From Cliona cf. orientalis (lineage: Eukaryota > Porifera > Demospongiae > Clionaida > Clionaidae), in assembly GCA_963930775.1 (NCBI GenBank), contig OZ005696.1:744001-808000 (forward strand): 64,000 nucleotides of DNA, written 5' to 3'. The notes below the pieces were generated by a model. That model worked only from the letters and a program-made list of their open reading frames with translations. It made no database searches and was not told where the DNA came from. The stretch's first letter is position 1. Each line of letters starts with the position of its first letter. Position numbers and translations under genes: made by a program. Positions 40,312 to 63,303 of the stretch are shown here, piece by piece.

Positions 40312-43300
40312 ATGGGGAAGGCATTAGCAAAGCTCTTTGGGAAGAAGGACATGAGGATATTAATGCTGGGCCTTGACGCAGCAGGAAAGACAAGTATCCT
40401 ACTTCTAAACTACTACATTTAGTGTCTCTATGTATATTACTATCTTGTCACTGTATAGAGTGAGAGGAAGAGAGGAGAGAAGAGAGAGAGAGAGAGAGAG
40501 AGGAAAGAGATAGAGTGATAGGGAGGGAGGGGAGGAGGAGAGATATGGAGAGAGAGGGGGATAGGGAGGGAGGGAGGAGAGAGAGATAGGAGGGAGGGAA
40601 GGAACAAATAGAGAGCGAGTGAACATACCAGTGGGTATGTTAATCGCATTGGATAGTGTTCAAAACAAATCACTTGTGCCTCGTATACACTTGGTATGTG
40701 TCAACCAGCACACCATACACACTGGGACAGCTAGCTGCTGTGTTGTTGAAGCTCAGCTATGCTTTACGTTACTTAAACAGCATACTAGCATGCTTGTTTG
40801 TGTGCGATCGAGTATGTCACTTGTATGGGTATATTACTAACAGAGAGAGATGCTTTATGAGTTTGTGTTAGTTGCTAAACTGAAAACGCTACACACCGAG
40901 AAAGTATAAAGTGGGAGGCGTGCGTGCAAGTTAAAAATAGCACCGTCTTGCGTAATCTTGTGTACTAAGTAATTATTCATAAACTAACTTATCCCAGCTT
41001 TGGGACTCTGCCTAGTCCTGCCACATAGAGTGGTCTAATCTTAAAGCATTAAGAGTCCCAACTAATAAGAATAATAAGCAAAACTCACGATTATAAAGGT
41101 GTTGTAGATCACTGAGGGGGCGAGTCTGCTTAAAATAAACTTTTATGTATTATGGTAGCAAACATCGATATGTGTGCGATAGGATCATGCGTAATATTTG
41201 TGGCTATTTTTTTAGGACGGAGGGAACGATTGTATGAATATTGATTAAGAACGAAAGAAAAGGTGACAATTTGAAGATAAAATTGTTAGGAGTTGAGGTA
41301 GGGGTATATCAGAGTATAGTATGGTTGATCTCGGAGTGACACCTAGCTCGTTAGTGGTAATATGGTGTATGGGTGATCGATTTTGGAATGGAATATTAAA
41401 TTTTAGCGAGATGGTGTGGTAGGAACAGTAGCTAGGCTCACGGCATCAATGAACAATCTTGATCTTAATAAGCAAGCTACTTGTTCGAAGTATGAAATTG
41501 GGCGATTTTGCATATATAGCATCCTATGTCAGTTTCGCTATACACATACAGCTGGGTATTAGATGGGCATAGAGAAAAATATTTTAGAATCTTAAGAATG
41601 AGCACCACGCTAGTAATGTTTGTATATATTCAAGTGCACGTGTAGTAACGGCCGATTTCACATAATGAAATAGCCATCTTCTTAGCAACAACGAGAACAA
41701 TAGTGTGATCTATAGATAGTCTGGCTGAGCTGATCTAAGTCTAACTTTGTCCAATTGCCATGGCTTCTGTTGTCCAACAGTGGTGCAGTTGTGAAGTGTC
41801 TATTTACTGGAAGCTAAGCTGGCTACAGTGGTGGTCAGTGGCTATGCCAAGTGCAGTGAGAGCGAGGGAGCCTTACTTTGACTTCCCCTCATCCCTACTC
41901 TCTCCACTACAACCTACATCCTGGATTGAATCACAGTTCTATTATGAACGATCCACGCTATATTCTATCCATTTCCCATGGCCCATAAGAACTGTTGGTG
42001 GTTGGGGTGGGATGTCTGTACATGCGTGTGGAGTGGAGTGGTTTTCAGTTATCATACTCCCATTGTTCAGATCTAGTGTTTGTGGACACTCAGAGAGTGT
42101 GTGTGCGCGCATTGGATGGTCATTGTCCAATGTGAATTGAAATGACATTGTGTATGTGTGAGGGAGTGAGGGAAAAAAGAGAGAGAGGGAGAGAGAGAAA
42201 GGAGAGAGGATGATTGTGTGTACGTTCTTAAGTGAACTGGTGAATTGCTGTGCTGTTCGTTCACTATTGTTTGATGTCTGACAGTCGTGATGTATGTATT
42301 GTGTATTGTTACAATAATAATTGTTATCGATATTGCACCAATCGGTATCACCGTGTGCTCCTTGATTCACTGATTTCACCACCAGCCATCCTCTACAAGC
42401 TCAAGTTAGGACAGTCAGTGACCACTATACCCACCGTCGGATTCAACGTAGAGACAGTCACCTACAAGAATGTCAAATTTAATGTTTGGGTAAGCCCCTC
42501 TAATTATTATAGTCTTCCTATATACATTGTTTTCTTTTGGAGTGGGGGGGGGGGGGAGGGGAAGGAGGGAGGGACAGAGAGAGAAAGAGAGATCCAGCTA
42601 GCTAAAACTAAACGAAGGGGGGGGGGGGGGCACATCTATGGGGGTGTAGCGTTTCCATCAAAGAGGAATTGACTCTTTGACCCCTATCATAAGTGACTGA
42701 TAATACTTCCTGTTCACATCCTCCCCCTCTTTCCCTCTTCCTCTTCTCACTTCCTTTTAACCAGGATGTCGGTGGTCAGGACAAGATTCGTCCTCTATGG
42801 CGGCACTACTACACAGGGACTCAGGGGCTCATCTTCGTCGTGGACTGTGCGGACAGAGACAGAATCGACGAGGCAAGACAGGAGCTACACCGCATCATCA
42901 ACGACAGAGAAATGAAGGATGCCATTATCTTAATTTTTGCCAACAAACAGGACTTACCAGATGGTAAGCTTCAACTGCTTGTAGTGGTGAGATTGCATGG
43001 CCTTAACCCTTCCACGTGAAATAACCCCACTATAGAGCATAAGTGGTCAATTAAAGAGGTATCCATTTGTAGGGGTAATCCACTTGAGAGTATGATAGCT
43101 ATTGGACATGTAAAGTAGGCCAAGATGTACTTGGCAAGTATCCACTGATAACGCCCATATACTTTGTTTCATTATCTCCCCCTCCACCAATTTTCAAGTC
43201 TTGGAACGGCTCCATAATTTTCTCGTAATTACCTCATAGATTACCTAATAATTACACCACAATTACCTCATAACCACAGAAAAGTAAATTGCCCCCAAAT

Positions 43301-43486
43301 CGTACAATATTCATATTCAATGTATCCTTGTCCACTGTAGCGATGAAGCCAGTTGAGGTACAAGAGAAGCTAGCATTGACAAAGCTTCGAGACCGGCTTT
43401 GGTACGTGCAGCCATCGTGTGCCACAACAGGGGACGGGCTTTATGAAGGATTAACGTGGCTCACATCAAATCATAAAGGAAAATAA
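40312..43486 (+). CDS. ARF6: ARF6 small GTPase
   Basis: Plasma-membrane and endosomal ARF GTPase controlling recycling, actin and PIP2 production. Exons: 40312-40393, 42386-42489, 42765-42963, 43341-43486; 176 aa plus TAA. It starts [10 protein letters not shown], with Gly2 for myristoylation. G1 is GLDAAGKT, switch [13 protein letters not shown]3 DVGGQDK, G4 NKQD and G5 CAT. Apart from the N-terminus and a few C-terminal positions it matches human ARF6 almost residue for residue. Introns fall inside the GKT-T codon, after FNVW and inside LPD-A. Intron 1 (2 kb) holds a GA microsatellite near 40460-40620. Confidence 0.97.
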
Positions 43487-43988: not shown

Positions 43989-45885
43989 TCATTCATGGCT
44001 ATCTATTCTGATCTTTTTGTCCGGAGGTTCAGCTGGTGCATCAGTGCCTGGTTCTTCACTGATACCCTGTCCTGCTCTGACCCTCAGTCGCTCCTCCTTG
44101 CGAGCGAGGTAGCTGGACATGTTGTCATACACCTGCTTTTTCATCTGACTCCAGTTCTTCTCGCTACCCACAGCACCTTGAAGGAGGGAGGGAGGGGGAG
44201 AGGGAGATTATCATTTGCTTCCATCTTATAGAAGTCATTACTTTTCAGTAAGTCCCATCTGCCTAAGCATTTCAATAATCTATTATCTTCAACCACTTTC
44301 AAAAGCTGCCGAGAGCCATCAGATTCAAGTTTATAGCAGAGAAGTGGCTCTGCCGGATGTGGGAGACACACCCACAGCCGATCCGACCAATCAAACGCAA
44401 GGCTCCACGGTGGCGCAGCAAGGGAGAGGAGATTATCATCACCATGGCAACGGGTCAGTTTTCCATCATTTGACAAAGCAAACTGAAAAAGGTTGCAACA
44501 TCTGCGAAAAAATTATCAGTCAAAATTAGAAGTCCAACTGCACTCACCCCTCTAATGCCACAATGACCTTCGACCTTCCACTGTCATCACATGACCGACA
44601 GCAACATAGCTGAGTCAGCACTTTTGGTGCCTCATCGTCTGCACCTGACGCCCCTCCCACGGCTGACTGAGGAGAGCTAACGACAGCTGTGTCCAATAGC
44701 CTCCCTCTCTCCCACTCCCAGCTCCTCAATGTACCATCCTATAGCAGAATGGGGAATGGGAATGGGCCTACCATATTATGTATATAATACAATGTAGCTA
44801 GACTTACCCCAGAAGCTGAGAGAAGCAAGTGTGGCCAGCTTTTGGAGAAGCAGATTCTCGTCACAAAACTACCATAAAATTTTGATATTTAATTATTTTT
44901 ATTGTTTATACTGCTAATTAGGAGGGGCTTACTCTGTATGGGACAGACAGTATGTCTCAATATTGTATGAGTTGGGATATTTGCTAACTCTGATCTTCTC
45001 GTCCCTGTCACACGTGATCACATGACTGTTGCTAGAAGACAGTACCTAATGAAAAAAAACATCATTGATAATTTGAACGGGATATTACACATTGAATTTC
45101 TATCATACATTTTTAGCAAAATCATGCTCTACAGTGTCAGGATGGCTATTAATTTTTCATTTATAAGGCTGGCGACCTTTACCGACTACAAACAGTCATT
45201 TACATCTGGAGCTCACCTACTGGCTTAAAATAGTTACATGAATTTGAAATCCCTGCTGAAATAGCTAATTATATACCATATCCAGTAGCATGGAGAAGTG
45301 GCCAAGGAGATACTCTCCTGGAGAGGTGGGATCAGAGGTCAAACTATAGCGATGCAGATCCCCCGCCTTGTCCGATACGAGGATGTACTGGTCGTCGTTG
45401 GTGAACTGAACAGCTGTGGCCCTTTTGGGGAGAACCCTGTAGCATAATTAATATCATCACTTAGAATTAATACCTCTGATAGCTGAGCAAGTTTGATTGC
45501 ATGTGCATAATGCAGATACAATGTGCAAGGGGTATAATAATATTATTATCATATTATGTGCTCTACAGAGCTCTAGCTATATATAATTTAGACCATAATA
45601 TTGTCACCCCAGTCGGTATGCAATAATTTACTATGATATTATGCTGCATATTCGTAACGAACCTCTCCATGACAGTATTCCAAGTCTGAGTTTGCCATAT
45701 CTTTAGTCTTTTTTCATCGGAGCAAGCAGCCAGGAGCAGACTGGAGGGGTTGAGCCCACAGCAGGCTATGGCCGACTCATCAATTCCCAACCTCAATACA
45801 CCTGCATCTGCATCATCCAATGAATCACCAGTGCTGAAAAATTGTTGTAAGCAAAATTTTAATAACGGACAAGAACATAAAAAAT

Positions 45886-45920
<35 letters not shown>

Positions 45921-46592
45921 TGGCTTCTCAACCAGTCACCGTATTAGCCAACCTATATGTATGGCTATAATCACTTCTAGAGGGGTATCAAGGCCGTGAT
46001 GTTACACTATACTTTGTCTCTTTCCTGTACTAAATGCTAAGAGGGGGGCAGATGTTAATTTTTCCCCAAGAGTCCTAATTAGACTTATTCCACCATGGGA
46101 GTGGTCTGGTATTAGTCTCGTACCCAGCCCCTCCTACGCACCCAGGGAGAGAGAGAGGGTCTGGGGAATTGTGCACTTCCGGCTTGTCCCTGTTAGAAAT
46201 TTCCAGGCACCAATCAGATTGCAGTATGTGGCACATGACAGCTCAAGAACGTACGGAATTTAATTTCATGCGCTCACGATGTTAGTAACGTTCAGAGCTG
46301 CAGCACATGTGGTGCGCTGACCAAAAACATTTAATTATTGACTATGCGATCAAATCCTAGATCCTGTCGCCAGAACAACTCGTTGTATGTACGGTCACCA
46401 GTAGCCTCCTCTCCCTCAAAGAGCCTGGGTACGCTGGGTCACCAGACCCTCGGATTGGGGGTGTGGCGCGCGAGACAAGAGAATTGAGGATGCATACTTA
46501 ATTTTCGATTCTGATGCGATCAGTAGCTCAGCTCCACAGGATACAATCATCCATCCCTCAGCTGCTGCTCCTCCTGCATGAATCATCGCCAT
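43989..46592 (-). CDS. WDR4: WDR4, non-catalytic subunit of tRNA m7G46 methyltransferase
   Basis: WD40 partner of METTL1 (yeast Trm82) for N7-methylguanosine at tRNA position 46. Exons in order: 46498-46592, 45663-45833, 45277-45437, 44933-45045, 44808-44868, 44548-44738, 44242-44482, 43989-44176; 406 aa plus stop, close to human (412). Diagnostic stretches are [33 protein letters not shown] and [13 protein letters not shown]. The C-terminal tail [12 protein letters not shown] matches the family's end. Exon 1 ([14 protein letters not shown]...) is my best fit: it has a gtatgc donor in the needed phase and an N-terminal CGAELL like the family, but weaker support than the rest. Intron 1 contains a poly-G tract at about 45887-45918. 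Confidence 0.9.
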
Positions 46593-47109
46593 ACTGGACA
46601 CATCTCATGTGCATCTCAATTAGAGCGCATCAATATCGATCACACCTTCACTTCACCTGCGCATGCGCATCAACGAATTTCTGCCGCGGCCGCGGGCGCC
46701 GGTTACCTGATGGTATCATGTTTAATACCTCTGGTATTACTCAGTGTATCAAGAAAATTAATAAAAATGTCCACCTCCCCTATGCCATCCTGGTAGCATA
46801 AACTGCATGATCGTCATAAATTTGGATATTTCAATCCTCTGCAAAGCTGGTTTCAAGGTTCTGTAGACATTGGATTTGACTGGCTTGCAATCACAATAGA
46901 GCAACTGCTCACATTAATTTTATGCAGCACTATAGGATGGTATAGGGGAGGTGGATATTTTACTTCTCGATACTGAGCTATACCTTTGTATGATTATACC
47001 ACTGCAATTTTGGTGCTAAATACTATTCTCTATATATACCAGTACTGTATAATATTATAATATTATAGAATTATGTATTAGAAGCAACGAGAGTTGATTT
47101 CAATGGTGA
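46593..47109. promoter_or_regulatory. WDR4 upstream region with NRF1-like site and a TIR element
   Basis: TGCGCATGCGCA at 46659-46670 is about 70 nt upstream of the WDR4 ATG, within a CpG-rich patch that includes GCGGCCGC. Further out, 46733-46985 is a foldback element. The remainder up to the fusion gene stop is AT-rich. Confidence 0.5.
46733..46985. repeat. About 250-bp TIR element between WDR4 and the fusion gene
   Basis: Left 'tccacctcccctatgccatc' and right 'gatggtataggggaggtgga' are inverted. Outer 'ggtattactcagtgtatc' pairs imperfectly with 'gatactgagctatacc'. Confidence 0.75.
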
Positions 47110-50100
47110 TCAGCTGTATTTATATTTAATTTTCTTTGGGTCGTATTCTTTACCACGATGTTGGGATCTGAGCAATTCTAATCCTTCATAGAGACCCTCT
47201 CCACTGGTAGCACAAGTTGGCTGAATGTACCAGTTTCTATCATGTAGACTAGGCAGTCCCATCTTCTCCTGTATTTCTGCGGCACTCAGTGCTGTAGAAG
47301 TGGCAGGGATAACATCGTAGTGCACTTTCTTATGATAACAGCTTAGTACTAAACTAATATAGTATACCATGCACATGATTGTACATTCATGCAAAATCAT
47401 TCCATACAATAGCCTACCATTTGGTAGATCCTGCTTATTAGCAAGCACAAGGATGATAGCATCCCTTATTTCCTCTTCTTTTATGGCACGATGAAACTCA
47501 TATCTTGCTTCATCAATCCTCTCACTGTCATTGCTGTCAACAACAAAGATGAGAGCATCAGTATTAGCAAAGTAGTGCCGCCAAAGAGGTCGGATCTTGT
47601 CCCCTCCACCAACATCCTATTAGTACCGGTATTATACATGTATTATGAAGAAATAGTTAACAATAATATGTCATAGAATTAATTTAATATTTTTTGTAGA
47701 TGCTACTTGTAACAAATACAGTGAATTGATCTGATTGGTTGAACTGCAGTATCTATCCAGCTCCAAAAACCCAGTAAATTTTTTCTATGGCTAGTTTATA
47801 TCTAGACAGTTGTTTACTACATCCCAGTAGCTAAATTTACTTTCTGAAACAAGAAAATATATGCCCAGTAAGGGTATCGAATTGTGAAATTTGGCACAGA
47901 CATGGATGAATATGGAAATTTATCTGTTTTCATTTAGACGAAAATAATTTCGTGCAGGTGCAGGTAGAAAATACCAGGTATGTAGCCTTGTAGGATAGGG
48001 GAAATTTTCTACATAATATCATTTAAGTTAGCAAAATTCTGCCCTATCCTCTGACAATCTGAATCATGTGTAGGAAATGTCATGTTTATAACAGACGGAA
48101 ATCTTAGCATTGGTCTAATGCAAGTTATGCCACTTTAAAGCATTTGACTAGTATATATACAGTATGCTACTTACTTGCATGGTGACCCTTTACCATAATA
48201 CAATGAAGCTATTATATATCACTGCAAAAAGAAAAGGGTTACTTTAACCCAACTTTGGTTACCTGAGTTGCATTGATGAACAATGCATACACAGTCATCC
48301 ATGCATGAATGCATGATTTTGGAATATATAATCATAATGTGTACCCATTGCACATAGTTTCTTGAGACGTGCATTGCTATGGAGAGCCAAGTAGAGCAAG
48401 AGTATTTGCAGTGCTTCTGGTAATTACCACTTCACTTATACTTCAATTACCAATTGCAACCACTTCACTCAATGTCATTCACCTTCATGCCCCTGTGCCA
48501 ACTATAATAATTATATACAATAAGGTAGCCTTAGCAACTTCATGCACGTCTCAGATATGTGAATAGCCTGGCTTCAAGTATGTTATATGATCAAAGCTAG
48601 GAATACTTTCATTCACATTCCATAATCATGGCTGGTCACGAACTGCATTCTTTTAGCTTGTGAGTGCAACTCAGGTAACCTAAGATGGGTTAAACTAACC
48701 CTTTTGTTTTTGCAGTGATATATAGGGAAGCGATGTGGTAATCGTTATAATTATACAAAACTTTTGGGCATTGTTGCTAGGATCTAAAGTTGTTAGACAT
48801 GCACTGTTTACTTAGTTGAATGTGCCATTTATATAATATTTATAGAAGCCATCATGATCAGGGCCCATGTACAGCCCCTTTGGTCTTCTAAATCACGTAG
48901 AAAGCTCCTAAATAGTATCTAACTACTATAATTATATAGAGATGTTACATATACATAATACAGGAATAGAACAGTTTCAGTTTCAATTTTGCAACAGACT
49001 GAGTATTATAATTTGATGCACCAAAACAAGAATGGTATAGCTAGTGATGGAAAACTAATACTAGAAGACATCCCTATACATCACATTAATTTTATGAAGT
49101 GAAGCACGTGCAGTGACAACTTAAATGATGATATTACTGCCAGTAGTAGATCTATTGGATGTCTCCTATAGTATTAGTTTTCCATCACTACTACAGTGAC
49201 TCCTGTCTTGGTGCTTTTTGTTACTGCCACATGTACTTCAAGTTCTAATACTTTGTATATAATATGTATTATGGCTGTCCATGATTGCATATGCATTGCT
49301 ACTCACCCAAATAGTTAATGACATCTTCCTGTAAAATATACTTTCAACATTGAACCCAATGGTTGGAATAGTGGAAACAGTCTCACCAAGCTTTAGTTTA
49401 TAAAGAGTGGCTGTGAATTTAGGTGTCAAATTAAGGAAATAATAATCAAGACTTCAGTAGATTATTTACTGATAAGTGAAAAAAAGATACACATGTAATA
49501 ATTCCCGAGTATTGCATTCAATATAAGCAGTGGGTAGATACATATCCAAGCTAAAGTTAAACGAATTATAGCTGTGTGCATGTGCAGGCTACATCGGTTC
49601 TAACAATCAGCATAACAATAATATAACAGCATTGAAAATTTCTTCATAATACTGGCTCATTTGTGTGTTCTGTGCAGGAGGGGCATAACATTTCCCTCCC
49701 AAACCTACGGTATAACCCATCTTTGACCACCAAGATGCAATGGCCTATATAATATTATCATGGTAATGTTCAGCAATTTCTCTCATTCAGCCCTCCCTCC
49801 ACTGCACAGCACCACCACCCCCCCCCCCCCCCCCCCCATTAAAAAAGTGAGTGAGTGTGCATACTATTTTACACTCATCTGGAAATAGTGCATATAGATA
49901 GCTAGGTCAGGATACTTGTTTTGCCAGCAGCATCAAGACCGATCATCACTGTTCTCATGTGTTTACGATCTCTTTTCCTATTCCTCTTCCTTTGTTTTTT
50001 TTTTGAAGTTGATGCTTTCTTTTTTTTCTTATCACCTTCGTGCTTTGTATCTTTCTTCTCCTTTCTGCTTTCCTTTTTAGTGTCCTTCTTAGATTTTGAT

Positions 50101-52742
50101 TTCTTTTGTCTCCATAACCAAGTGAACTTTCTTTTTCTTTTCTTCCCTTTTAGTAAAGATTATAGTGAATATTATCGGCATGATAGATTATGTACATTAC
50201 CTGTTTCACCTTCTGAACTACCTTCTGATTTTGTAGCACCTTCATCATAACCAGTAGCTCGAGGTAAAAATTTTATGGTTATCTCAGGAGAGTCATTCAC
50301 CATCTCAGCACCACTATATGTTTGTAACTCTTTTCCTTCCTTTGCCTTGGCATCATCTTGCACTTTTTCTAATCCTAGATCTGCTTTATTGTTTTTTTCT
50401 GATTTAGTGTCTTGTGATTTCGGTAGTGATTCTCCCGTTGCAGTTACTTCATCTTGGTCAAAGCCACCTGCTCTCTGCAATTTCCATTTATGATCGTGAT
50501 GATTTCTTGGGTGCTGATCTGAAGCTTTTGCTTTTTCACTTGAGGTATTCCATTCTCGTAAAGTTTCATCCTCCATAGTGTGTACCTCTGCAGCAATTAT
50601 AATCACATCTTGTGCTTCTGGATCCTCTGCTCCATCAATGGGACTATCATGATGCTCTTTAACACTTTTCTCACCTTTGGAACTGCTTGTAGCACCTTCA
50701 TCAGAATCAGCTGATAAAATGGTTATCTCAGGAGAATTATTCACCATCACGGTGCCACTATGTGTTTGCACCTCTTTTCCTTCCCTTGCCTTTTGTTTGT
50801 TTTCTTGGTCTGGTTGTGCATCATATTGCTTGCTTTCTTGCTTTGGTTGCTGTGTGACAATAACATCATCACACTCATTTCCTAGCTCTGGCTGTTCTGC
50901 ACCATGCTTACGTTCTTCCTTTCGTTGTTCCGTGGCACTGGCATTATCATGCTTGATTTCTTGCAGAGTATCCTCTAAATCTGTGTCTACATTTTGTACT
51001 GGCTTTCTTTCTTCTTTCTTATTCATCATAATATCATCACCATTTTCTTGCATCTCTTGCTGAACATCCTCATGGCCACTGTCTTGTACTGTATCTTCAC
51101 TCTCCTCTCTCTTCACATCTGTAGTGACAGCTGTTTGAACGATATGCCGGGGGCCACTTTCTTCTTTTGACCTCAACTTTTCCTCAGCACCATTTTCATG
51201 CTGTGGACTATCACGATGACTCTCGGTGTTTTCATTTTCCACTGGTTTACTTATCTCCTCATCTTCTATATGTTTATCAATCTCATGCATGCTTTTGCAG
51301 GACTGATCACCATTTTTATTGGCACTATTAAGCCTTGGTGATGGAATCACTTTTTCTTCAATGAATTTTTCAGAACTACCACCTGGTTTACTACCTTGTA
51401 CCTTTGGTACAGACTCTCCAACTGTTTCTTCATCTTTGTCAAATCCACTTACTTTCAGTGATTTCTGTTTGCAATCTTGTCGGTTGTTTGGGTGCTGTTC
51501 TGAATGGTTAGCTTTTTTATTTGGGCTATTCTGTTCTGGTGAAGTTTCATCTTCTTTAGTGTGTACTTCTGCAGCAATGACGATCACATCTTGTGCTTCT
51601 GGATCCTCTGCTCCATCAATGGGACCATCATGATGCTCCTCAACATTTTCCTCAGGAACATAATATGAGTCGGATGCTTTATTTGTATTTGAAATCATTT
51701 GTCCTTGATTTGACCCACTTATGTCTGCATCTTCATCTGATGTCAGCTGATTTCCTTCGAGCTCATTTGACCTCTTTTCACTATTTTCACCTTTGCTAGG
51801 TGCTCCACTTTGTTTACTTTTCCATGAATCTGACACACTTTTGCAATACTTGTCATTTTCCTGAAGTTTCTTCATCTTCTTGTAAAGCTCTTTGGCAGAA
51901 GGACGCTGGGTGCTGTCATTACTCAAGCAGGGGAGTGCAATCTGCAGGAGTGGGTGGTTTGGATCGATTTCACTAATGTGGCCTTTTCGACGCTCTATCT
52001 CGGGAATATTCACATAATATGACTGCATACAATCATCATATTCAGCATCTGGAGGCTTGTGGTGATCGATGGGACAAGGGAACTTCCGTGTCATTATTTG
52101 GATAGCGACCACACCAAATGAAAAGCAATCAATTTTCACATCATAATAGGGATTATTTCTCAAACCTTCTGGAGGCATGTAGGGAAGTTTGGTAGAGCTC
52201 ATGGTGTGCACAAGAAAGCTTCTTTTTGGATTGAAACTGCTCAACCTGGCCATACCAAAATCACTCACTTTAGCCCGAACATTACTGATGAGCAACACAT
52301 TGTTGCCAGAAAGATTTCTATGGATGATACCATTTGAATGGAGATAGGAGAGTGCTAGAACGATATCTCGACTTAAATTAACTTGGAGGTGGTATGGCAC
52401 TTTGTATGGGGAGGACTCGAGGAAGTGGGTGAGATTCTCATCCATCATTTCCATGAGCAGGACTGGTTGGCCAGTGATTTTGTCATAGTGAATACCTAAG
52501 TACTGGACAATATTGGGATGCTGTACAGTATGAATAAATTTGCATTCTTGCTCAAATCTCTGTGCATTTTTATACGGTCCAGCTATGGAAAAGATTGTTG
52601 AGTCAAGGATCTTAGCAGCACAGGGAAGGTCATCGCACTGTGCATGACACACCGCTCCAAAGGCACCAATACCAATGATTTGATCCTTGAAGAGTTCTAT
52701 GCTCTCAAATCCAGCCTTCTTCTTCACAAGCTTAGCTGCCAT
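47110..52742 (-). CDS. Kinase-like/ARF GTPase fusion protein, copy 1
   Basis: Not a family I can name. Exons in order: 50201-52742, 49916-50146, 49307-49410, 47418-47616, 47110-47291; 1085 aa. Residues 1-295 form a protein kinase fold: GIGAFG loop (24-29), AAK lysine (44), HRN at 141-143 where HRD is expected, DFG, then MPPEGL. Residues about 300-845 are an acidic Glu/Lys/Ser/Gln-rich tail with an internal duplication. Residues 848-910 are strongly basic (KKRKRKFTW, many KKK). The last 175 residues are an ARF domain: [23 protein letters not shown] and CATSG are kept, but G3 is DVGGGDK, lacking the catalytic Gln. There is no N-terminal myristoylation Gly. The first ATG is at 52740-52742. Predicted kinase-dead, GTP-binding scaffold; localisation through the basic stretch is inferred. 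Confidence 0.88.
48213..48724. repeat. 512-bp TIR element in fusion copy 1 intron 3
   Basis: Inverted ends of about 60 bp begin 'tatatatcactgcaaaaa' at left and end with its complement at right. The arms contain 'gggtta.tttaaccca' and 'ggttacctgagttgca'. The core has no transposase frame, so it is non-autonomous. Confidence 0.88.
49042..49190. repeat. 149-bp TIR element in fusion copy 1 intron 3
   Basis: The ends 'tagtgatggaaaactaatac' and its complement at 49171-49190 are nearly perfect over 32 bp. TA at each edge fits a TA target duplication. Confidence 0.85.
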
Positions 52743-53062
52743 GGCAATCAAAAAGGTTATAGCTTAATAATAAAATAATTAGCTAACAATCACGGTTTAG
52801 CTAACTTGATCTATTTAGGGTTCACTGAATGCTTTAGACTAATTAGCTACTGAGCTATTTGGTGCTGGGTACTGACAATATCTAGATCTCTTGAAGGACC
52901 GGATATGTATGGGTAAGCCAGGTGTACAAAATGCCAGCAAATGAGTGCATAGGGCATAAGTCTACCGCGACGTAACATGCCGCTCGCGTAGGTGTAAGTT
53001 AAGTTTGCAATTCGCTAATTTAGAACTGTATGTTAATTGCTCAGTGACTGAGTACCGCAATA
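52743..53062. promoter_or_regulatory. Divergent promoter of fusion copy 1 and the TRPA-like channel
   Basis: 320 bp between two start codons facing away from each other. No clear TATA box in either direction. Shared regulation is inferred only. Confidence 0.45.
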
Positions 53063-56000
53063 ATGGCTGGCAGACATCAAGAAAGTAATGTAAAGCTAGT
53101 GCCAGGAAACGAAGTTAATATAGAATTGGACGTGATCGCCGTTGTAAGCACTATTAAATAGCTACTAAAACGCCTGGCTATAACGCATAGCTGCACGGTA
53201 ATACTACTGAATTCATGCCGCATATAAATGCACGCAGGAGGAGGCTGATTTGGATTCTAACAGCTCTCAGGATGGCGCCGCAAGCTTTAACGTTGGTGAC
53301 GCTGTCAGCAACTCCGAATCGTCGTCTGACCTCATTCAGATTGATGACAATCTTGCAGGCGTAAGCCGCATGCAGTACTATGTAAATCTACGGTACCATG
53401 TTTTAGTATGCATAGCACCATAGATATCTATGATAGCACCTAGTGGCCGCCACAAAAATGCGGCGGGCAATTATCTGCATGCTATGATTACCGGTGGTAA
53501 TAGTGCTTGCAAAATAGACGACCTTTGCCAATAATAATCATCAAAATCTGGGGGTGAGATGCTAGAATTAATATTCGCTTATGGATGTGCCAAACTAACT
53601 TGGATCATAGATTAGATATTCCCCTTGGATACTGATGGGCTTAATAATAGCATTATAATGATATTATGTGTACAGGCGATTGAGAAAGGGGACCCTGAGG
53701 GTGCGTTTGCATCTTGGCTAGAATCCCTCCCGGCGTCTAGTGACGAGAAAAAGACAATACTCAACACCATCAGATACAACAACTCCAGTACAGCTCTCCA
53801 TCTTGCTGCCGAGTACAATTGCCCAAAGATCGCCAGGTTGCTTTTGGATGAAGGGGCAGGTATCTAGAAATTATCTTCTCATTCTCAGCTGGCACCTCTG
53901 AGCCTTTTGGTAGCTACCCACATAGCTACATTTCTGTGTGTCACAAATATTAAAAAAAAAAAAAAAAAAGTGTAGAGGTCGCCATTGGCTTGTCGCAATG
54001 ATACTAAAACTTATCATACCATAATGGTATGACTATTAACACCTGATAGCTATATTATTATGTGTTGTAGATCCAAATATCAAGAGGACTGATGTTTCTG
54101 AAGACGCTGACGATGAAGAAGAAAGTAAAGAAAATGATTCTAGTGCACTGCATATTGCCTGTAGCAATTCCGCTGAGGCTGACATCTCTGACTTAGTGCA
54201 ACTTCTTGTCGAGAACAGGTATCTTGCCACCACACCATGCACTAGCTGCATACAACCATCTTTATTAATGTCATTTCATATATCAAGCTGCATTGGTAAA
54301 AAATGGGTATACAATTGGAAGGAAGTACCTTTATTATTATTATTATGCAATCTCTATGGCTTTATAGTGGCATACTATAATAATATTATATTATAATATA
54401 CATATAGGAACTGTAATATAGATGCAGCAGACAGCCTCCATCATACTCCCCTCCACATTGCTGCAAAACGAAATCACATTTCAGCCGTGAAAATTCTCCT
54501 TGCAAAGGGTGCTGACATGCAGCTGAAGGATGACAATGGTGACCAACCCATCCACATAGCAGCAGAGGCTGGCAACTACGAGTAAAATTAATAATTAATT
54601 TACATGTAGCTACTACCATTAATGTGTATGGGGAAGGTGGTAGGGTTGGTGGGGCAATATAGAACAAGCGAGCATGCATGCATCATTAAGCATGGTTATC
54701 TTCCCTCAAACCCACGCTCATTCCAAGCATCAATAATTAGTACTAAAAAGAATTTTTCCTGCATGTGTTAATAGAAACATTATTATTGAATTATCACATG
54801 CATGCGCAGTATTGTGGAACTGCTGATTGAGAAGAATGCTGAGTGTGTGCACTGGCTTAGTGACAACTATGAAACACCACTGCACAGGGTCTGTGCACAC
54901 AGCCATAACATCCGCATCACCAAGTTACTAATCGACAAAGGAGCCAACGTCAATGCTGTGTACGTATGAAATGCATTTTTGATACTATCCATAGCAGTAA
55001 TTTATTATGCATGCTTTAATAGGGATGATGGAGGTGATACTCCACTGGTCTGTGCTTCAGAAGATCAGAATAACACTGAGTTGGTAGAGCTTCTCCTAAA
55101 CAACGGAGCAGATGTGAATCCTCCACCAGGCGAGGTTCGACCGTAAAAAAGAGCGCTTAGCAGCTGCTAAAAGATGGTTTGTTGTAATGATAATATTATT
55201 ATGCAGGAATCAGACACTCCACTTCAAACAGCTTGCTTCTTCGGATGCAGTGATATCGTATCTCTGCTTTTGAAACATGGAGCAAAAGTGGACTCCAAAG
55301 CACTCGAGAAGGCTGTGAGCGAGGGATATGAGTAAGACAATCAAGACTGCAATAGTACTAGGTTTCATGTCATTCTTTTTACACTTTAGGGGGATAGTTA
55401 AGGAATTGATTCAGAAACCTGAATGGCCACAGCTTATGCGCCACATTATAGAGGATGATTCAGAAGAAGGGACCACTCCTTTCAGAGAGATGATCAAGAA
55501 AATGCCAGGTAGCTAGCTAATCAGCACCCCATATGTGAGAAAGAATCTGCTATCCTTTTTTAAATTTTTCTTGATGGTCAGGATACAGAATTGGACATAA
55601 TTGTAACCTTATTCCAGCAGTATTAAATTTTTAAATGCTATTCAGCATGCGTATGACATTGTAAAGCAGGGAATAGGTTGACCCTGGGACTGTGCTGCAC
55701 AAGGCCTGCTTCTATTAATTTGCAGATGTAGCTGAGGAGATTCTTAACAAGTGCACAGTGAATGACCCGGAATATACTAACCCTGACGATCCAGATTATT
55801 GTGTGGCTTTCAACTATGAGTTCATAGAAGACACTAGGGATGATAAGAAAAGGTGAAGGAACTGCACGTATACAGCACACTCTAGCTAAAATGATGTAGC
55901 TGGTATCGAATCTGTCCATGAACTTACTATGATCAGTGAACACATACACGCAGGACTGATGACCGTCGCAGAAAACCGAGATTAAATTTGAAGGATGAGG

Positions 56001-58249
56001 AGGATAGATATGGGTGTGGTTACAGAACAATAGAACAGCGTAAGAAGGAAAGCTACACTTCCTCATGGGGACCTGTGGGGTTCAAGAAAGCTACTCACCC
56101 GTTAGCTATTATGGTATGATACTCCTTGCACATAAATTACAATAGCTTTACGATTATTGAAGAAACAGTCAAGGAAAGGGAGAGAGCTGATGAGAGTGAT
56201 AAAAGATGAAAAGAATGAGAGAGAGAGAGAGAGAGAGACTGGGTTATGGCTGAGTTTATGATTGAATCTTCTCAAAGGTGGAGAGTAAACGTCTCAATCT
56301 GCTGACTCATCCTCTTGTGGGGAGCTTGCTGCATCACAAATGGAGGAAATTTGGCCAATATGGTTACTTTGCCAACCTACTGATATACTGTGTCTTCGTA
56401 ATCTTCCTTACCACCTTCGCACTCATAGTTCAAAATCCAAGGAGCGAAGCTTGTGAGTCTGTCGTTCTTGATTTCCAATAATGTTAATGCATTTTTTTGG
56501 TGCACTATTCAGGTTTGAAAATTAATGAAACTAGGATTGATTGTGGTATGTTATTTAATACACCCATACCTTAGTCTCATTCCCAGACCCCAAACTCCAA
56601 GGATTGGGATCTGGGAATGGAGCCTACAACTGCTCTATACGTGGCATTTCAGGTATCAGCACACATCGCCTGGTTGCTATCTATTTTTCTGCCATTGTCG
56701 TCATCATTTTATCCCTTTTCCGTCTGGTGATTCTGGAGGGGATACAGTTCATAACTCAGCGTTCTCGCTATCTATTGGACTGGGTCAATTGGATCGAGAT
56801 TACTCTATTCATCTGCTCCATCATATATGTGTGGGTCTTTCACACAGACTGCCTCTGCCCTTTGACCTGGCAGTGGCAGATTGGAGTCGTGGCAGTATTT
56901 CTGAGCTGGTTCGATCTGATCATCTTCATTTCCAAATTTCCATTAACCGGAATCTACGTTCTGATGTTTGTAAAAATATTATATACATTCCTCAAAATGC
57001 TTATTCTCTCAGTTCTGCTCGTATTTGCGTTTGGACTAACATTTTATTTGGCTTTCACACAACCAGAAATTTTGGTACGATGATTGATCTATTTATGTTG
57101 CCGTTGATATATTTACATAATTTTTTTATCCACGATAGCGATCACCATTTTCCCATCCTGGACGTTCGCTGCTTAAGACCATGACTATGGCCACTGGAGA
57201 GTTTGATTTCGATCCCATTTTCCGTCAAGATCCAACTGGAGCGCGTGATAATGACGAGGAAATCCCCTTTCCCCCGGTCTCCTACATCTTGTGGATCGTA
57301 TTTATTGTTATCATGCCTATTCTACTTACAAACATGCTGGTATGCAGGTAGCCTCATCCCCAGGCTCCCCAATCTTTTGCAACGCGCGTGCGTGCGTTGA
57401 AAAAGATTGGGGAGCCTGGGGACAAGCTTAATGCTGGTATGCAGGCATAATGATGTGATGCATACGGACCAGTGCACACAACCAGAATCCTTAATTTTTT
57501 TATTATGCTTTTTATCATCAGGTTGGTCTTGCCGTTGATGACATCCAGACCATTCAAAAGGAAGCTGCTTTGCAAAAACTGGCACTTCAGGTTTTAAAGG
57601 GCACATTAATTTTTGCATGACTAATAATAGCTAGAGATATTTTAGGTAGAGCAAGTGCTGACTGTTGAAGAGCTTCTTCCACCAAAATTGCGGCGTCGAT
57701 TCACTACTGGATTCATGAAGGTGTCTCCAAATAAGGGCGTGTCATGGAGGAAGAAATTTCTATTCATTGTGTGGGGCGGAGAGAGGTACAACACTCGAGC
57801 CAGCATCGGGAAAGTACTGCATCCAAACGAGGTGCCTGCTGCTGCAAATTCTGTATTTTGATTCATGGTAGCTATAGGACTATAATAGTAATTTTTGGTA
57901 TGCCTTAATTGACCTCAGCATCTAATTTTAACCCTGTTGCTATATTTAGGATGAGACTGAAAGACTACAAAGGAAGACTGATAAGTTGCTTCATGAAGTT
58001 GATGGAATGAAGGTATGGGATCTAACTGTGTATTATTAATTAATTTAACAAAGAAACCAATTTTTAGGATGAAAACGAGAAGCTACATGGGAAGACTGAT
58101 AAGTTGCTTCAAGAAGTAGAAGATATGAAGGTATGACATTGTATTACCGTAACTCAATGTCACTGCATCATACTATTCTGTTTATTATATTAATATAGCA
58201 TTTGATTAAGCAACTCATTACAAAACTGGAGGAAAATAAAAAAAACTGA
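53063..58249 (+). CDS. TRPA-like ankyrin-repeat cation channel
   Basis: Membrane cation channel. Exons: 53063-53143, 53238-53360, 53676-53859, 54071-54218, 54408-54581, 54810-54959, 55023-55134, 55207-55331, 55390-55508, 55726-55852, 55954-56113, 56278-56452, 56513-56545, 56587-57074, 57139-57339, 57522-57590, 57646-57831, 57950-58012, 58068-58130, 58199-58249; 943 aa plus TGA. Residues 1-68 are polar. About seven to eight ankyrin repeats (TALHLAAEYN, TPLHIAAKRNH, TPLHRVCAHSH and others) span about 90-405. S1 is at about 525-550, S2-S5 in exon 14, the pore MATGEFDFD and S6 in exon 15. After S6, LTNMLVGLAVDDIQTIQK resembles the TRPA1 post-S6 segment. The S1-S2 loop has N-glycosylation sites (NETR, NCSI). 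The C-terminus is a coiled coil. It has fewer ankyrins than TRPA1 (about 16), so it is TRPA-related, not necessarily a strict ortholog. Confidence 0.9.
56572..56620. repeat. Foldback element contributing a splice acceptor to the TRPA-like gene
   Basis: The arms 'cattcccagaccccaa' (56578-56593) and 'ttgggatctgggaatg' (56604-56619) pair with one mismatch. It starts with 'ttagtctcattcccag', like the foldback at 63682. Its CCCAG is the acceptor of exon 14. Confidence 0.6.
57334..57445. repeat. 82-bp foldback insertion with 15-bp target duplication at a splice donor
   Basis: The arms 57358-57385 and 57394-57421 match over 28 bp with one mismatch around an 8-nt loop. The element (57349-57430) is flanked by direct repeats 'atgctggtatgcagg' at 57334-57348 and 57431-57445. 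The repeat includes the exon 15 donor CTG|gtatgc, which is therefore present twice. Confidence 0.9.
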
Positions 58250-58950
58250 ATCCAAGTGTAGCTAGTGTGTAGTCCTACACATAAAGCATACACATTATGA
58301 CATTGTAGTGTGCAGCCAGCTTATAATTATGCATTGTGTTGAAGTAGAACACACACGGAGTAGACACTAGTCTTTCCATTATGTTATAGTAATGTTATGA
58401 TTGTGCCTAAAGCTATGTTGATGAGTGATTTTTTTATTTTAGCATGGCATGAATATTTATCTTAATAGCTCTAGCTATTCAATAATTGTGACACGACCCC
58501 CAGGTTTCCTCCTTTGAAGAATGCATTAAATTAATAATTAAACAGTGCATCATAGTGTCAAATTTCAAGTTGAAGATGTCATGAGACTACTTGATTGTGG
58601 CCTGCAGGACGATCAGCTAATCCAATTAATTAATACCCTAGTTAGCGCATGGTTGGCATAACTAAGTTGAGCATCTGAATGGATGGGCAGCTATAAGACC
58701 AACATAAAAAAAACATTGGTCAGCAGGCTATAATAATATTGGTGTCTGAACACCAAATTAAACTATGACATTGTAGTAGAAGGTTAGAGGCTTCAAGGAA
58801 ATTTGAACACTGAAAGGTGATCAGGAAAGTGCTCCAGTCAGCTGGACATTAATATCAGACTCTACTGTTATAGAAGCGCGCAGATATCTCCAATCACATC
58901 AAGTATAGTTGTATATACTGAGGAATTAACTACAAGCTTTTTTGGTTCCC
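58250..58950. other. Intergenic region between TRPA-like gene and fusion copy 2
   Basis: AT-rich. It should hold the channel's 3' end and the promoter of the fusion gene. I see no gene, TATA box or clear repeat. Confidence 0.5.
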
Positions 58951-61900
58951 ATGGCAACTAAGCTCGTGGAGAAGAGGGCTGGATTTGAGAGCGTAGAATT
59001 CTTTAAGGATCAAGTGATTGGTATTGGTGCCTTTGGAGCGGTGTGTCATGCACAGTGTGATGACCTTCCCTGTGCTGCTAAGATCCTCCACCAGACCATC
59101 TTTTCCATAGCTGGACAACATAAAAAGGCACTGCAATTTGAGCAAGAATGCAAATTCATTCGTACTATACAGCATCCCAACATTGTCCAGTACTTAGGTG
59201 TTCACTACGACGACATCACTGGCCAACCAGTCCTGCTCATGGAAATGATGGATGAGAATCTCACCCACTTTCTCGAGTCCTCCCCAGACAAAGTCCCTTA
59301 CCACCTCCAAGTCAATTTTTGTCGAGATATCGTTCTAGCACTCTCCTATCTCCACTCAAATGGTATCATTCACAGAAATCTTTCTAGCAACAACGTGTTG
59401 CTCATCAGTAATGTCCGGGCCAAAGTGAGTGATTTTGGTATGTCAAGGCTGAGCAGTTTTGATCCAAAAAGAAGCTTTCTTGCACACACCATGAGCTCTA
59501 CCACACATCCCTACATGCCTCCAGAAGGTTTGAGAAATAATCCCAATTATGATGTGAAAATCGATTGCTTTTCATTTGGTGTGGTCGCTATCCAAATAAT
59601 GACACGAAAGTTCCCTAGTCCTACTGATCGCCTTCAGCCTCTTGATACTAAAAGTGCTGCTGGTCTACTATCGTATACGATTGTTCCTGAGATAGAGCGT
59701 AGAAAGGGCGACATTAGCAAAATCAATCAGAACCACCCACTCCTGCAGATTGCACTCCCCTGCTTGAGTAATGATAGCACTCAGCGTCCTTCTGCCCAAA
59801 ATCTTTACAAGAAGATAAAGAAGCTTCAGGAAAGTGACAAGTATCGCAAAAGTGTGTCAGATTCAGGGAAAAGTAAACAAAGTGGAGCATCACGCAAAGG
59901 TGCAAGGAATGAAAAGAGTTCAAATGAGCTCAAAGGAAATCAGCCGACGTCAGGTGAAGATGCAGACGCAAATCAAGAACAGATGATTTCAAATACTATG
60001 AAAGCATCCAACTCACATATCGCTGAGGAGTATCATGATGGTCCTATTGATGGCCATGGAGCAGAGGATTCAGAAGCACAAGATGTGATCGTAATTGTTG
60101 CAGAAATACACACTAAAGAAGATGAAACTTCACCAGAACAGAGTGGCCCAAGTGAGAAATCAAAAACTTCAGAACAGCACCCAAGCAACTACCAAGATCA
60201 CAAACAGAAATCGCTGAAAGCAATTGGATTTGACAAAGATGAAGAAACAGTAGGAGAATCTGTACCAAAGGTACAAGGTATCAAACCAGTCGATAATTCT
60301 GAAGAATTCATTGAAGAGAAAGTGATTCCATCACCAAATAGTGTCGATAAAAATGGTGATCAGTCCTGCAAAAGCATGCATGAGATTGATGAGCATATTA
60401 TTGAAGATGAGGAGATAAGTAAACCAGTGGAAGATGAAAACACCAAGAGTCATCGTGATAGTCCACAGCATGAAAATGGTGCTGAGGCAGAGTTGAGATC
60501 AAAAGAAGAAAGGGAACATATCATTCAAACAGCTGTCACTATGGATGTAAAGAGAGAGGAGAGTGAAGATACAGTACAAGACAGTGGCCATGACTCATGG
60601 CATGAGGATACCGGTATTCAGCAAGAGATTCAAGTAAGTGAGAATGATGACATGAACAAGAAAGAAGAGGAAAGGAAGCCAGTGCAAACTGTAGATGCTG
60701 TGGAGAACAATCTACAAGAAAGCAAGCATGATGACGCCAGTGTCACAGAACAACCAAGGGAAGAAAGCAGGAATGAAGCTGATGGTCCAGAACAGCCAGA
60801 GCAAGAGAGCAGGGATGATTTCACACAGAAATCAAAGCCAGAAAGCAAGCAAGATGGTACAGAAGAGTCAACGTCAGAATTAGAAAGTGATGTTAGCGTA
60901 ACACAGCAATCAAAGCAAGAAAGCAAGAGAGAAGAGTCAGAGATGGAGAGCAAGCAAGATGGTATGGATGAGTCAGAGGTAGAGAGCAAGCATGATAATG
61001 CAGAGCCACAAAAGCAAGAAAGTAGGCAAGATGATGCACAACCAGACCGAGAAAGTAAACAAAAGGCAGAGGAAGGAAAAGAGGTGCAAACACACAGTGG
61101 CAATGAGAAGGCGAACAATTCTCCCGAGATAACTGTTTTATCTCAAGCTACTGGCTCTGATGAAGGTGCTACAAAACCTGAAACCACTTCTGATAGTGAA
61201 GCAGGTAATACCATTGCAGTAGTGTCCCGGGTAAGCACCCATTCCCAGATAAGCACTCATGCAACTGACGTTCATGGAGCTCAATGTAGCAGCTTCTATA
61301 CCCTGGGTAGCTAAGCCCATACAGGCCAAAATTGAGCTACGCTTACATGGGCATGCACTTAGCTACCCAGTTACTGTTACACTAATGTATACGTATTAAC
61401 TCTTATCTTCATTATTATAATTATAGAAGTGAAAAAAAGAAAAAGGAAATTCACTCTTTTCTCAGGACGTAAGGGATCAAAATCTAAAAAGGGGGCTAAA
61501 GAAAGCCAGGAGAATGATAAAACTGAGGATGAGGGAAGTAAAATGCATGGTGGTGGCAAGAAATCTAAACCTAAAAAGGAAAAAGAAAAGAAAAAATCAG
61601 TTCCAAAAGCTGAATCCAAAAAAAGCAAGCATGAAAAAAAGAAAAAGCAGAGAAAGAAAAGTCGTAAAGAAATGAGAACGTTAATGATTGGTCTTGATGC
61701 TGCTGGCAAAACAAGTATCCTGACTATGCGATTAATAACTTGTATATTATGATGGTAATTAACATAGGATTTGTATATACCATAAACCATGCAGTCAAGA
61801 TTGTGCATTAAATACTCACATGTAGTTGAGCTTGAGGGGAACATACATGGCTGCAGCTCATGTTCATTGAACACTTACTCTCTTTCTCCAAACTGCTACT

Positions 61901-63303
61901 GTAACGGTGTTCCATAATTCTATAATATTATTATCCTATGGAGGATAATTTTTGGAAATTGGAAGCTCCATTACTTTCCACATGACTGCACTCTATTTCA
62001 ATTTATGCTACTTGCCATAATTATTTAGATTCTTTAACTCATCTCCCAAATTCGCAGCCACCCTTTATAGGCTGAAGCTTGGTGAGAGCGTTACAACTAC
62101 TCCAACCTGTGGGTTCAACGCTGAGACTGTAAAATACAACAAGATGAAATTCGCTATTTGGGTAAGTAGCTACTGTACAAGGGTGTAGATGGGGGGGGGG
62201 GGGGGGGGGGGGGGGAGGTGTGTGGTGGGCACTTTTGAGCAATAATTTATGTACTATAATATATGGGATTGTCTAAAGTTAGATGAAATTCTAGTTGTAT
62301 TCACTCTAATGATAGTTGGATAGCCAAAAGGTGCAAAACTGAGATATAATAGCTGGAAATAGCGATTTTAATAACAAATTTTTTTGTGCACTTTGCTCGC
62401 AGTTGTCACAAAGCTCCCCCCCCCTTGGAAACCGTGTCTACGCCCTTGCTGTATAGCATGAAATTTTCGAGGGAGGAAATTTTAATAAATTTCACAATTT
62501 TAGGGCCACTCACAAAAGTTTCCTTCATGAAATTTTAGGCATGCCATATTCACCTATCTATAGGACTGGTTTAAAATAATTAATAGCATTCTGTGAAATT
62601 CTCTCTGCTAGATGCTTTTTCCTACTGATCCGTATTTTTTGTCCCCCCAAAATTTCATGCGGTAGCTAGCTATGGTATTATAGTTATAATACTATGAAAG
62701 TGCATATTGCCCATTTCTTCACAACGACTTAGGATGTTGGGGGACAGGACAAGATCCGACCTCTTTGGCGGCACTACTATGCTAATACTGAGGGTCTCGT
62801 TTATGTTGTCGATAGCAACGACAGGGACAGGTTTGGTGAGGCAGTACAGGAGTTTCACCGCACCATACATGAACGGGAAATGAAGGATGCTATTATTCTT
62901 GTGCTTGCTAATAAACAGGATTTACCAGATGGTAAGCATAACTTTGGTGAGGTGTAGCTAGCACTCTGATACCTCTATACTCGGTATTGACGGATTTAGA
63001 CTAGCTATAGCTTATACCATGCATACACATTCTGTGCCATCAAAAAGGTCTGCCAGTATTATATTAGTGCAAAATTAAATATGTTAAGCATCATATTAAA
63101 TCATCATGGTTCCTGCCTCCACAGCAATGAAACCAGTAGAAATACAGGAGAAGATGGGGCTGCCTCGTCTACGTGATAGAATTTGGTACGTTCAGCCAAC
63201 TTGTGCTTGGTCTGGAGATGGTCTGCATGAAGGATTCGAATGGCTCAGATGTCAGCATGTCGGTAAAGAATACAGCCCAGCTACAGCAGATACACTCGAT
63301 TGA
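58951..63303 (+). CDS. Kinase-like/ARF GTPase fusion protein, copy 2
   Basis: Inverted paralog of copy 1. Exons: 58951-61204, 61427-61714, 62058-62161, 62733-62931, 63125-63303; 1007 aa plus TGA. Kinase fold: GIGAFG (24-29), Lys44, HRN at 141-143, Asn148, DFG at 161-163. The charged tail runs about 300-750 with many short QESK/ESKQD repeats. The basic stretch is about 752-835. The ARF domain is about 838-1007 with [17 protein letters not shown] in switch I, intact DVGGQDK and NKQD, but G5 reads CAWSG instead of CATSG. The ATG at 58951 matches the copy 1 start. The ARF introns are in the same positions and phases as in ARF6. Confidence 0.88.
62162..62732. other. Fusion copy 2 intron 3 with poly-G tract
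   Basis: Holds a poly-G run at about 62190-62214, the diverged TIR element and ordinary AT-rich intron. Confidence 0.6.
62448..62668. repeat. TIR-like element in fusion copy 2 intron 3
   Basis: Left 'gcatgaaattttcgaggg' and right 'ccaaaatttcatgcggtagc' are roughly inverted. Inner 'gaaattttag', 'tttcac' and 'aaagtttcc' recall the element at 21640-21850. Diverged, so the ends are approximate. Confidence 0.5.

Follow-up and report, generated by a model that had tools for sequence, protein, structure and literature searches.

The stretch of DNA analysed here, called the window below, comprises 64,000 nucleotides from the sponge Cliona cf. orientalis (contig OZ005696.1, here C8, positions 744001-808000), and the genome searched for related loci is 217 Mb. 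A canonical ARF6 gene encoding 176 aa lies on the plus strand of the window (exons 40312-40393, 42386-42489, 42765-42963 and 43341-43486), 3.6 kb from the first of two loci, copies A and B, which were rebuilt exon by exon. Both copies consist of five exons with GT–AG introns throughout and no internal stops, and both have the domain order kinase-like domain, acidic tail, polybasic exon and ARF GTPase core. Copy A, on the minus strand, has 1085 codons. Its exon 1 (50201-52742) encodes the kinase-like domain (52742-51837) and the acidic tail (51836-50201), exon 2 (49916-50146) the polybasic segment and the ARF P-loop, exon 3 (49307-49410) switch I, exon 4 (47418-47616) the part from switch II (DVGGGDK, that is, Q67G) to NKQD, and exon 5 (47110-47291) the ARF C-terminus with the stop. 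Copy B, on the plus strand, has 1007 codons, and its exons encode the kinase-like domain (58951-59853) and the acidic tail (59854-61204) in exon 1 (58951-61204), the polybasic segment and P-loop in exon 2 (61427-61714), switch I in exon 3 (62058-62161), switch II (DVGGQDK) to NKQD in exon 4 (62733-62931), and the ARF C-terminus (CAW, that is, T157W) with the stop in exon 5 (63125-63303).

Pfam places the kinase domain at residues 20-288 or 289 in both copies and the Arf domain at residues 905-1068 in A and 827-990 in B, and other GTPase models match the ARF part as well, with weaker scores. The five-exon chains, with a Pfam kinase and a Pfam Arf match in each, bear out the initial annotation of a kinase-like domain spliced onto an ARF domain at both loci, whose coordinates and lengths of 1085 and 1007 codons agree exactly with the rebuild. 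Two of its terms hold only in part: the "full" kinase-like domain is present as a Pfam kinase domain, but its HRD reads HRN, and the "complete" ARF domain has the GTPase core, but lacks the first 13 residues of ARF6, including the myristoylation start. The number of copies, given there as two, has to be raised to six, plus a seventh locus where the tail and the ARF part occur without the same kinase.

Other frames were also observed around these loci. Between copies A and B (53600-57300, plus strand), by eye, ankyrin-like repeats are followed by membrane-spanning frames, resembling a TRP-type channel. WD-repeat-like frames, which we take to be WDR4-like, occur twice beside the ARF cluster, at 45200-46600 on the minus strand of the window and at C8:846-848.5k; this pairing suggests a segmental duplication.

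The whole-genome search with the kinase domain of copy B as the query gave 131 scored matches among 1246 first-look candidates, and the counts are lower bounds. Six matches, B itself included, reach an identity of 81% or more with the query, while the next best stands at 57%. Downstream ARF exons were traced at these six, and polybasic and ARF exons were found downstream on the same strand in every case; among the 125 other matches, 25 were read, for the HRD motif. Five of the fusion copies (A, B, C, D and E) are located on C8 and one (F) on C10, with lengths of 1085, 1007, 1148, 1148, 1004 and 951 residues for A to F, respectively. All six agree in the length of exon 1 modulo 3, which is 1, and in that of exon 2, which is 0; in each of them exon 3 has 104 bases and exon 4 has 199, a regularity beyond chance. 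It should be noted that the six copies do not represent six independent trials, because they share common ancestry. C and D, which lie in opposite orientation and are one residue apart, could be a single locus assembled twice, and are therefore taken as one wherever distinct copies are counted. An assembly or annotation artefact is unlikely, since complete copies sit on two contigs, and the kinase–ARF fusion itself is, judging from the sequence, very probably real. Copies B and E form a mosaic, with 99-100% identity in the tail and the polybasic exon, 95% in the kinase and 87% in the ARF part, which is probably the result of gene conversion.

The seventh locus, G, is located outside the window (C8:842129-833795, minus strand). 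Here the tail, polybasic segment and ARF part follow, in frame and over nine exons, a protein with the order NACHT, LRR, COR-like and Death domains. The chain is 2210 codons when counted from the preceding stop; a start codon was not found. Pfam identifies NACHT (E 3.9e-22) and LRR_6 (E 1.8e-8), the combination that marks an NLR-like receptor. The COR-A match, in the non-ARF part, scores 34.3, just below the cut-off of 35.3; the Pfam Roc match lands on the ARF part, and a Roc-like P-loop ahead of COR is recognized by eye only. The Death-domain exons of G are 82-90% identical to those of a paralog, L051 (C8:1174065-1175700), in which, by eye, the Death-domain exons lead into an acidic stretch and then the beginning of a kinase-like part. 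Within one exon of G, 88% identity to the C8:1174k paralog gives way to 90% identity to copy C, and the switch takes place within about 3 bases. This abrupt mid-exon switch argues that the tail–ARF block moved into G as a unit. A simple broken kinase copy was considered as an explanation for G and rejected, because the tail runs in frame from the Death-domain exons and identity switches in mid-exon. A second, truncated NACHT start is seen upstream of G at C8:844120.

The ARF part of the fusions is of ARF6 type. The window ARF6 gene scores 368 bits against ARF6 of PDB entry 2a5d, and the best PDB relative of the copy B ARF is also ARF6 (267 bits, vs. 244 bits for ARF1); in the three loci scanned with Pfam (A, B and G), the Arf model scores 197-227 bits against a cut-off of 22.3. 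Identity between the fused ARFs and the window ARF6 is 64-73%, and both have the same three ARF intron positions, with exons of 104 and 199 bases. In a tree with frames from L001, L002, L003 and L005, a C18 gene, the window ARF6 and six fused ARFs, drawn from a genome with 96 Arf matches and leaving out L007 and two ARFs of the L004/L005/L006 cluster, the fused ARFs and the window ARF6 group apart from the five other ARF-family rows with a support of 92/92, where the mark of the tool is 95; a single origin of the six fused ARFs receives a support of only 47/17. The window ARF6 gene is likely to be the source of the fused ARF part. A side observation concerns L018 (C18:58.1-59.6k), a canonical ARF gene with an MGN start, where two tandem versions of the switch II exon (DVGGRDKI and DVSGRSGI) were noticed by eye; they are perhaps mutually exclusive exons.

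Residues were compared, by ARF6 numbering, in the six distinct ARFs (A, B, C, E, F and G). K26, T27, T44, D63, G66, N122 and D125, as well as F47 and W62, are kept in all six, and Y77 in five. Q67 is also kept in five, being Gly in A, while T157 is replaced by Trp in B and C and by Ala in F. Accordingly, one of these two positions is changed in four of the six, and E and G keep both. In ARF6, Q67L is described as constitutively active and T157A as fast-cycling (PMC10272126, in excerpt). By analogy, a Gly at position 67 or a Trp at position 157 may act like Q67L or T157A, and the GTPase of copies with Q67G, T157A or T157W would perhaps be biased towards the GTP state. If so, these copies would be controlled mainly through their placement at the membrane and not through nucleotide exchange.

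Selection was assessed pairwise as an excess of synonymous changes over the share expected under neutrality (Fisher p < 0.05, uncorrected), with D omitted as a copy of C; the pairs compare related copies, and count as support rather than as independent tests. The excess is found for the kinase in all 10 pairs among A, B, C, E and F and, with G added, for the tail in 14 of 15 pairs (exception B–E). For the polybasic segment, whose alignment is low in complexity and whose dS is near or above 1 in many pairs, it is found in 12 of 15 (exceptions B–E, B–F and E–F). The ARF part also shows it in 12 of 15 (exceptions B–E, A–G and C–G), and its dN/dS is 0.34-0.63 in 13 pairs, 0.96 for B–E and 1.15 for C–G. 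Constraint is therefore not evident between the ARFs of G and C, and G may be young, relaxed or decaying. In view of ARFs that are only 64-73% identical to ARF6 and of dN/dS values up to 1.15, some fusion copies may be decaying as well.

The fusion would most likely act as a scaffolded, membrane-tethered ARF6-type switch. The alternative that survives best also accepts that the fusion is made, and holds that its ARF is a decoy or dominant-negative form, which binds effectors or regulators without cycling, and that the kinase is a plain scaffold. The fast evolution of the ARF part, the changes at Q67 or T157, the lost N-terminal helix and the HRN kinase are all consistent with it. However, the nucleotide-binding motifs are intact in all six distinct ARFs and the synonymous excess persists in most ARF pairs, and we consider a decoy unlikely, although it deserves more weight than the alternatives that follow.

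Between kinase and GTPase, the fusion copies carry an acidic tail with a net charge of -41 to -80 and a lysine/arginine block with a net charge of +21 to +26. A 207-residue piece of the copy A tail has 10 matches genome-wide, in 7 loci. The polybasic exon occupies the place of the ARF6 N-terminal helix, which is missing together with the Met-Gly myristoylation start when the copies are aligned. For the membrane-tethered switch, the lysine-rich block would take over from the myristoyl helix and hold the protein electrostatically at acidic membranes, and the acidic tail, to judge from charge alone, might fold back on the block and mask it until the tail is phosphorylated or a partner binds it. 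The lysine block might just as well be read as a nuclear signal: it is highly basic, and its KKRKRK presumably resembles a classical signal of this kind. That the exon serves nuclear targeting or RNA binding, with the protein acting in the nucleus instead of at membranes, nevertheless seems improbable, since the block takes the position of the ARF6 N-terminal helix and the effector residues of ARF6 are conserved.

All six fusions retain the DFG motif of the kinase and its VAIK-type lysine (K44 in A, B, E and F; K43 in C and D), whereas their catalytic HRD reads HRN, with D changed to N at the catalytic base. The closest relatives outside the fusions are kinase–coiled coil–Kelch genes of this genome, up to 57% identical, among the 125 of 131 scored matches that are non-fusion. 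They differ from the fusions in keeping HRD, as do 25 of the 25 non-fusion family kinases read (L025-L049, of at least 125 such matches), and in having a Kelch-like end instead of the tail, polybasic segment and ARF. Among these 25, the C-terminus has a Kelch-like motif in 17 and is ankyrin-like in 3, all on C16, while 5 are incomplete before it; Kelch was confirmed in L026, the sole relative scanned with Pfam. By eye, an LRR–Roc–COR-like frame lies downstream of L049 on the same strand and may belong to one gene with it. With HRN in every fusion and HRD in all 25 relatives read, the fusion kinase domain is probably a pseudokinase. With the lysine and DFG kept, it may still bind ATP and serve as a docking or sensing platform; for PSKH2, an HRN pseudokinase, nucleotide binding is predicted to persist (PMC9988210, in excerpt). 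Structure prediction for the kinase from the two window copies gave a mean pLDDT of 38.9 and was not relied on.

It might also be argued that the HRN kinase is active enough to phosphorylate targets and that the ARF merely delivers it to membranes. The domain is constrained and retains K44 and DFG, and very low activity is reported for the HRN domains of HER3 and JAK2 (PMC9988210, in excerpt). However, the loss of the catalytic base in every fusion, against its retention in the relatives read, makes this slightly less probable even than a nuclear role. The decoy, nuclear and active-kinase alternatives overlap, and the probabilities that we attach to them do not add up to one.

The weakest alternative, two head-to-tail genes per locus (a kinase–tail gene ending in intron 1 and a separate ARF gene, with the open junction a coincidence), can appeal to the in-frame stop beyond the exon 1 donor in all six copies (after 9 codons in A, 36 in B and E, 17 in C and D and 8 in F), but is very improbable, because exon 2 opens at the splice acceptor without a Met-Gly start in any of the six and the first in-frame Met of exon 2 directly precedes the P-loop in A and F, intron 1 of A is just 54 bases, the junction phase is kept in all six, the tail piece searched is accompanied by ARF exons at 7 of 7 loci, and tail and ARF were transferred together in locus G. 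One spliced kinase–ARF protein, as the initial annotation proposed, is therefore the best reading, with the junction in six of six copies, no Met-Gly start in exon 2 and constraint on both sides in most pairs. Since the frame stops past the exon 1 donor in all six copies, a kinase–tail protein without ARF, made by retention of intron 1, is possible in addition.

For the spliced protein, the proposed steps can be joined as follows. Release of the masked lysine block would allow an ARF6-type switch to operate at the plasma or endosomal membrane, where the kept effector residues would recruit ARF6 effectors. The full mechanism, with a pseudokinase platform, a polybasic anchor, masking by the tail and an ARF6-type output, is about as probable as not, leaning a little to the doubtful side. 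Because the same GTPase tail is joined to an immune-receptor-like protein in locus G, a portable signalling module is also suggested: the tail, polybasic segment and ARF6 core might be a C-terminal output module through which unrelated sensors (the pseudokinase in six genes and the NACHT–LRR–COR-like–Death receptor in the seventh) drive membrane signalling of ARF6 type directly, and several copies would already be set towards the GTP state. We put this forward tentatively, as clearly less probable than the mechanism for the fusions themselves. The mid-exon recombination at locus G shows a possible route by which such a module could spread.

ARF GTPases normally work as free-standing, myristoylated proteins that are switched by exchange factors and GAPs. 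An ARF6 core hard-wired behind a pseudokinase or an immune-receptor-like protein would be a natural direct coupling of signalling domains to membrane traffic. Compared with ARF6 itself, the fusions have the same intron positions, the nucleotide-binding residues and most effector residues, but the N-terminal helix is replaced and Q67 or T157 is changed in most distinct copies, so that the family constitutes a natural series of ARF6 variants at these two positions. A kinase and a GTPase are joined in a single chain in ROCO/LRRK proteins too. In ROCO proteins, the Roc domain is followed by COR, whereas the GTPase of the fusions is an ARF6-type core, and no COR was found by Pfam in A or B. In TRIM23 (ARD1), an ARF core lies at the C-terminus, as in the fusions, behind an N-terminal RING/B-box/coiled coil part instead of a kinase; neither RING nor B-box was found by Pfam before the ARF core in A and B.

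TRIM23 thus resembles the fusions in that its ARF family GTPase core is embedded in a larger signalling protein, and it belongs to the multidomain ARF proteins (PMC8358228, in excerpt). According to the same excerpt, 75 multidomain proteins occur among more than 2,000 ARF sequences, with the lineage-specific partners BTB, F-box, RSP3, VPS9, 2OG-Fe(II) oxygenase and Rab-BTB-BACK (PMC8358228); the likeness is that an ARF core is joined to an unrelated block within one lineage. No protein kinase, NACHT or Death-domain partner is named in its section 13, and the paper nowhere uses the words sponge, Amphimedon, Porifera or NACHT. The earlier claim that no described protein has this order of domains stands to the extent that none is named in the titles or abstract openings of the open-access matches listed. 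Multidomain ARF proteins are already known, and the kinase–ARF combination is new as far as the open-access papers searched show. Sponge NLRs have been described, with COR among the accompanying domains (PMC12909245, a paper in which neither ADP-ribosylation nor GTPase occurs as a word). An ARF domain and an acidic tail are also combined in the ciliate radial spoke protein Rsp3C, with ARF at its N-terminus, an acidic, glutamate-rich tail at its C-terminus, and no kinase (PMC12399478, in excerpt).
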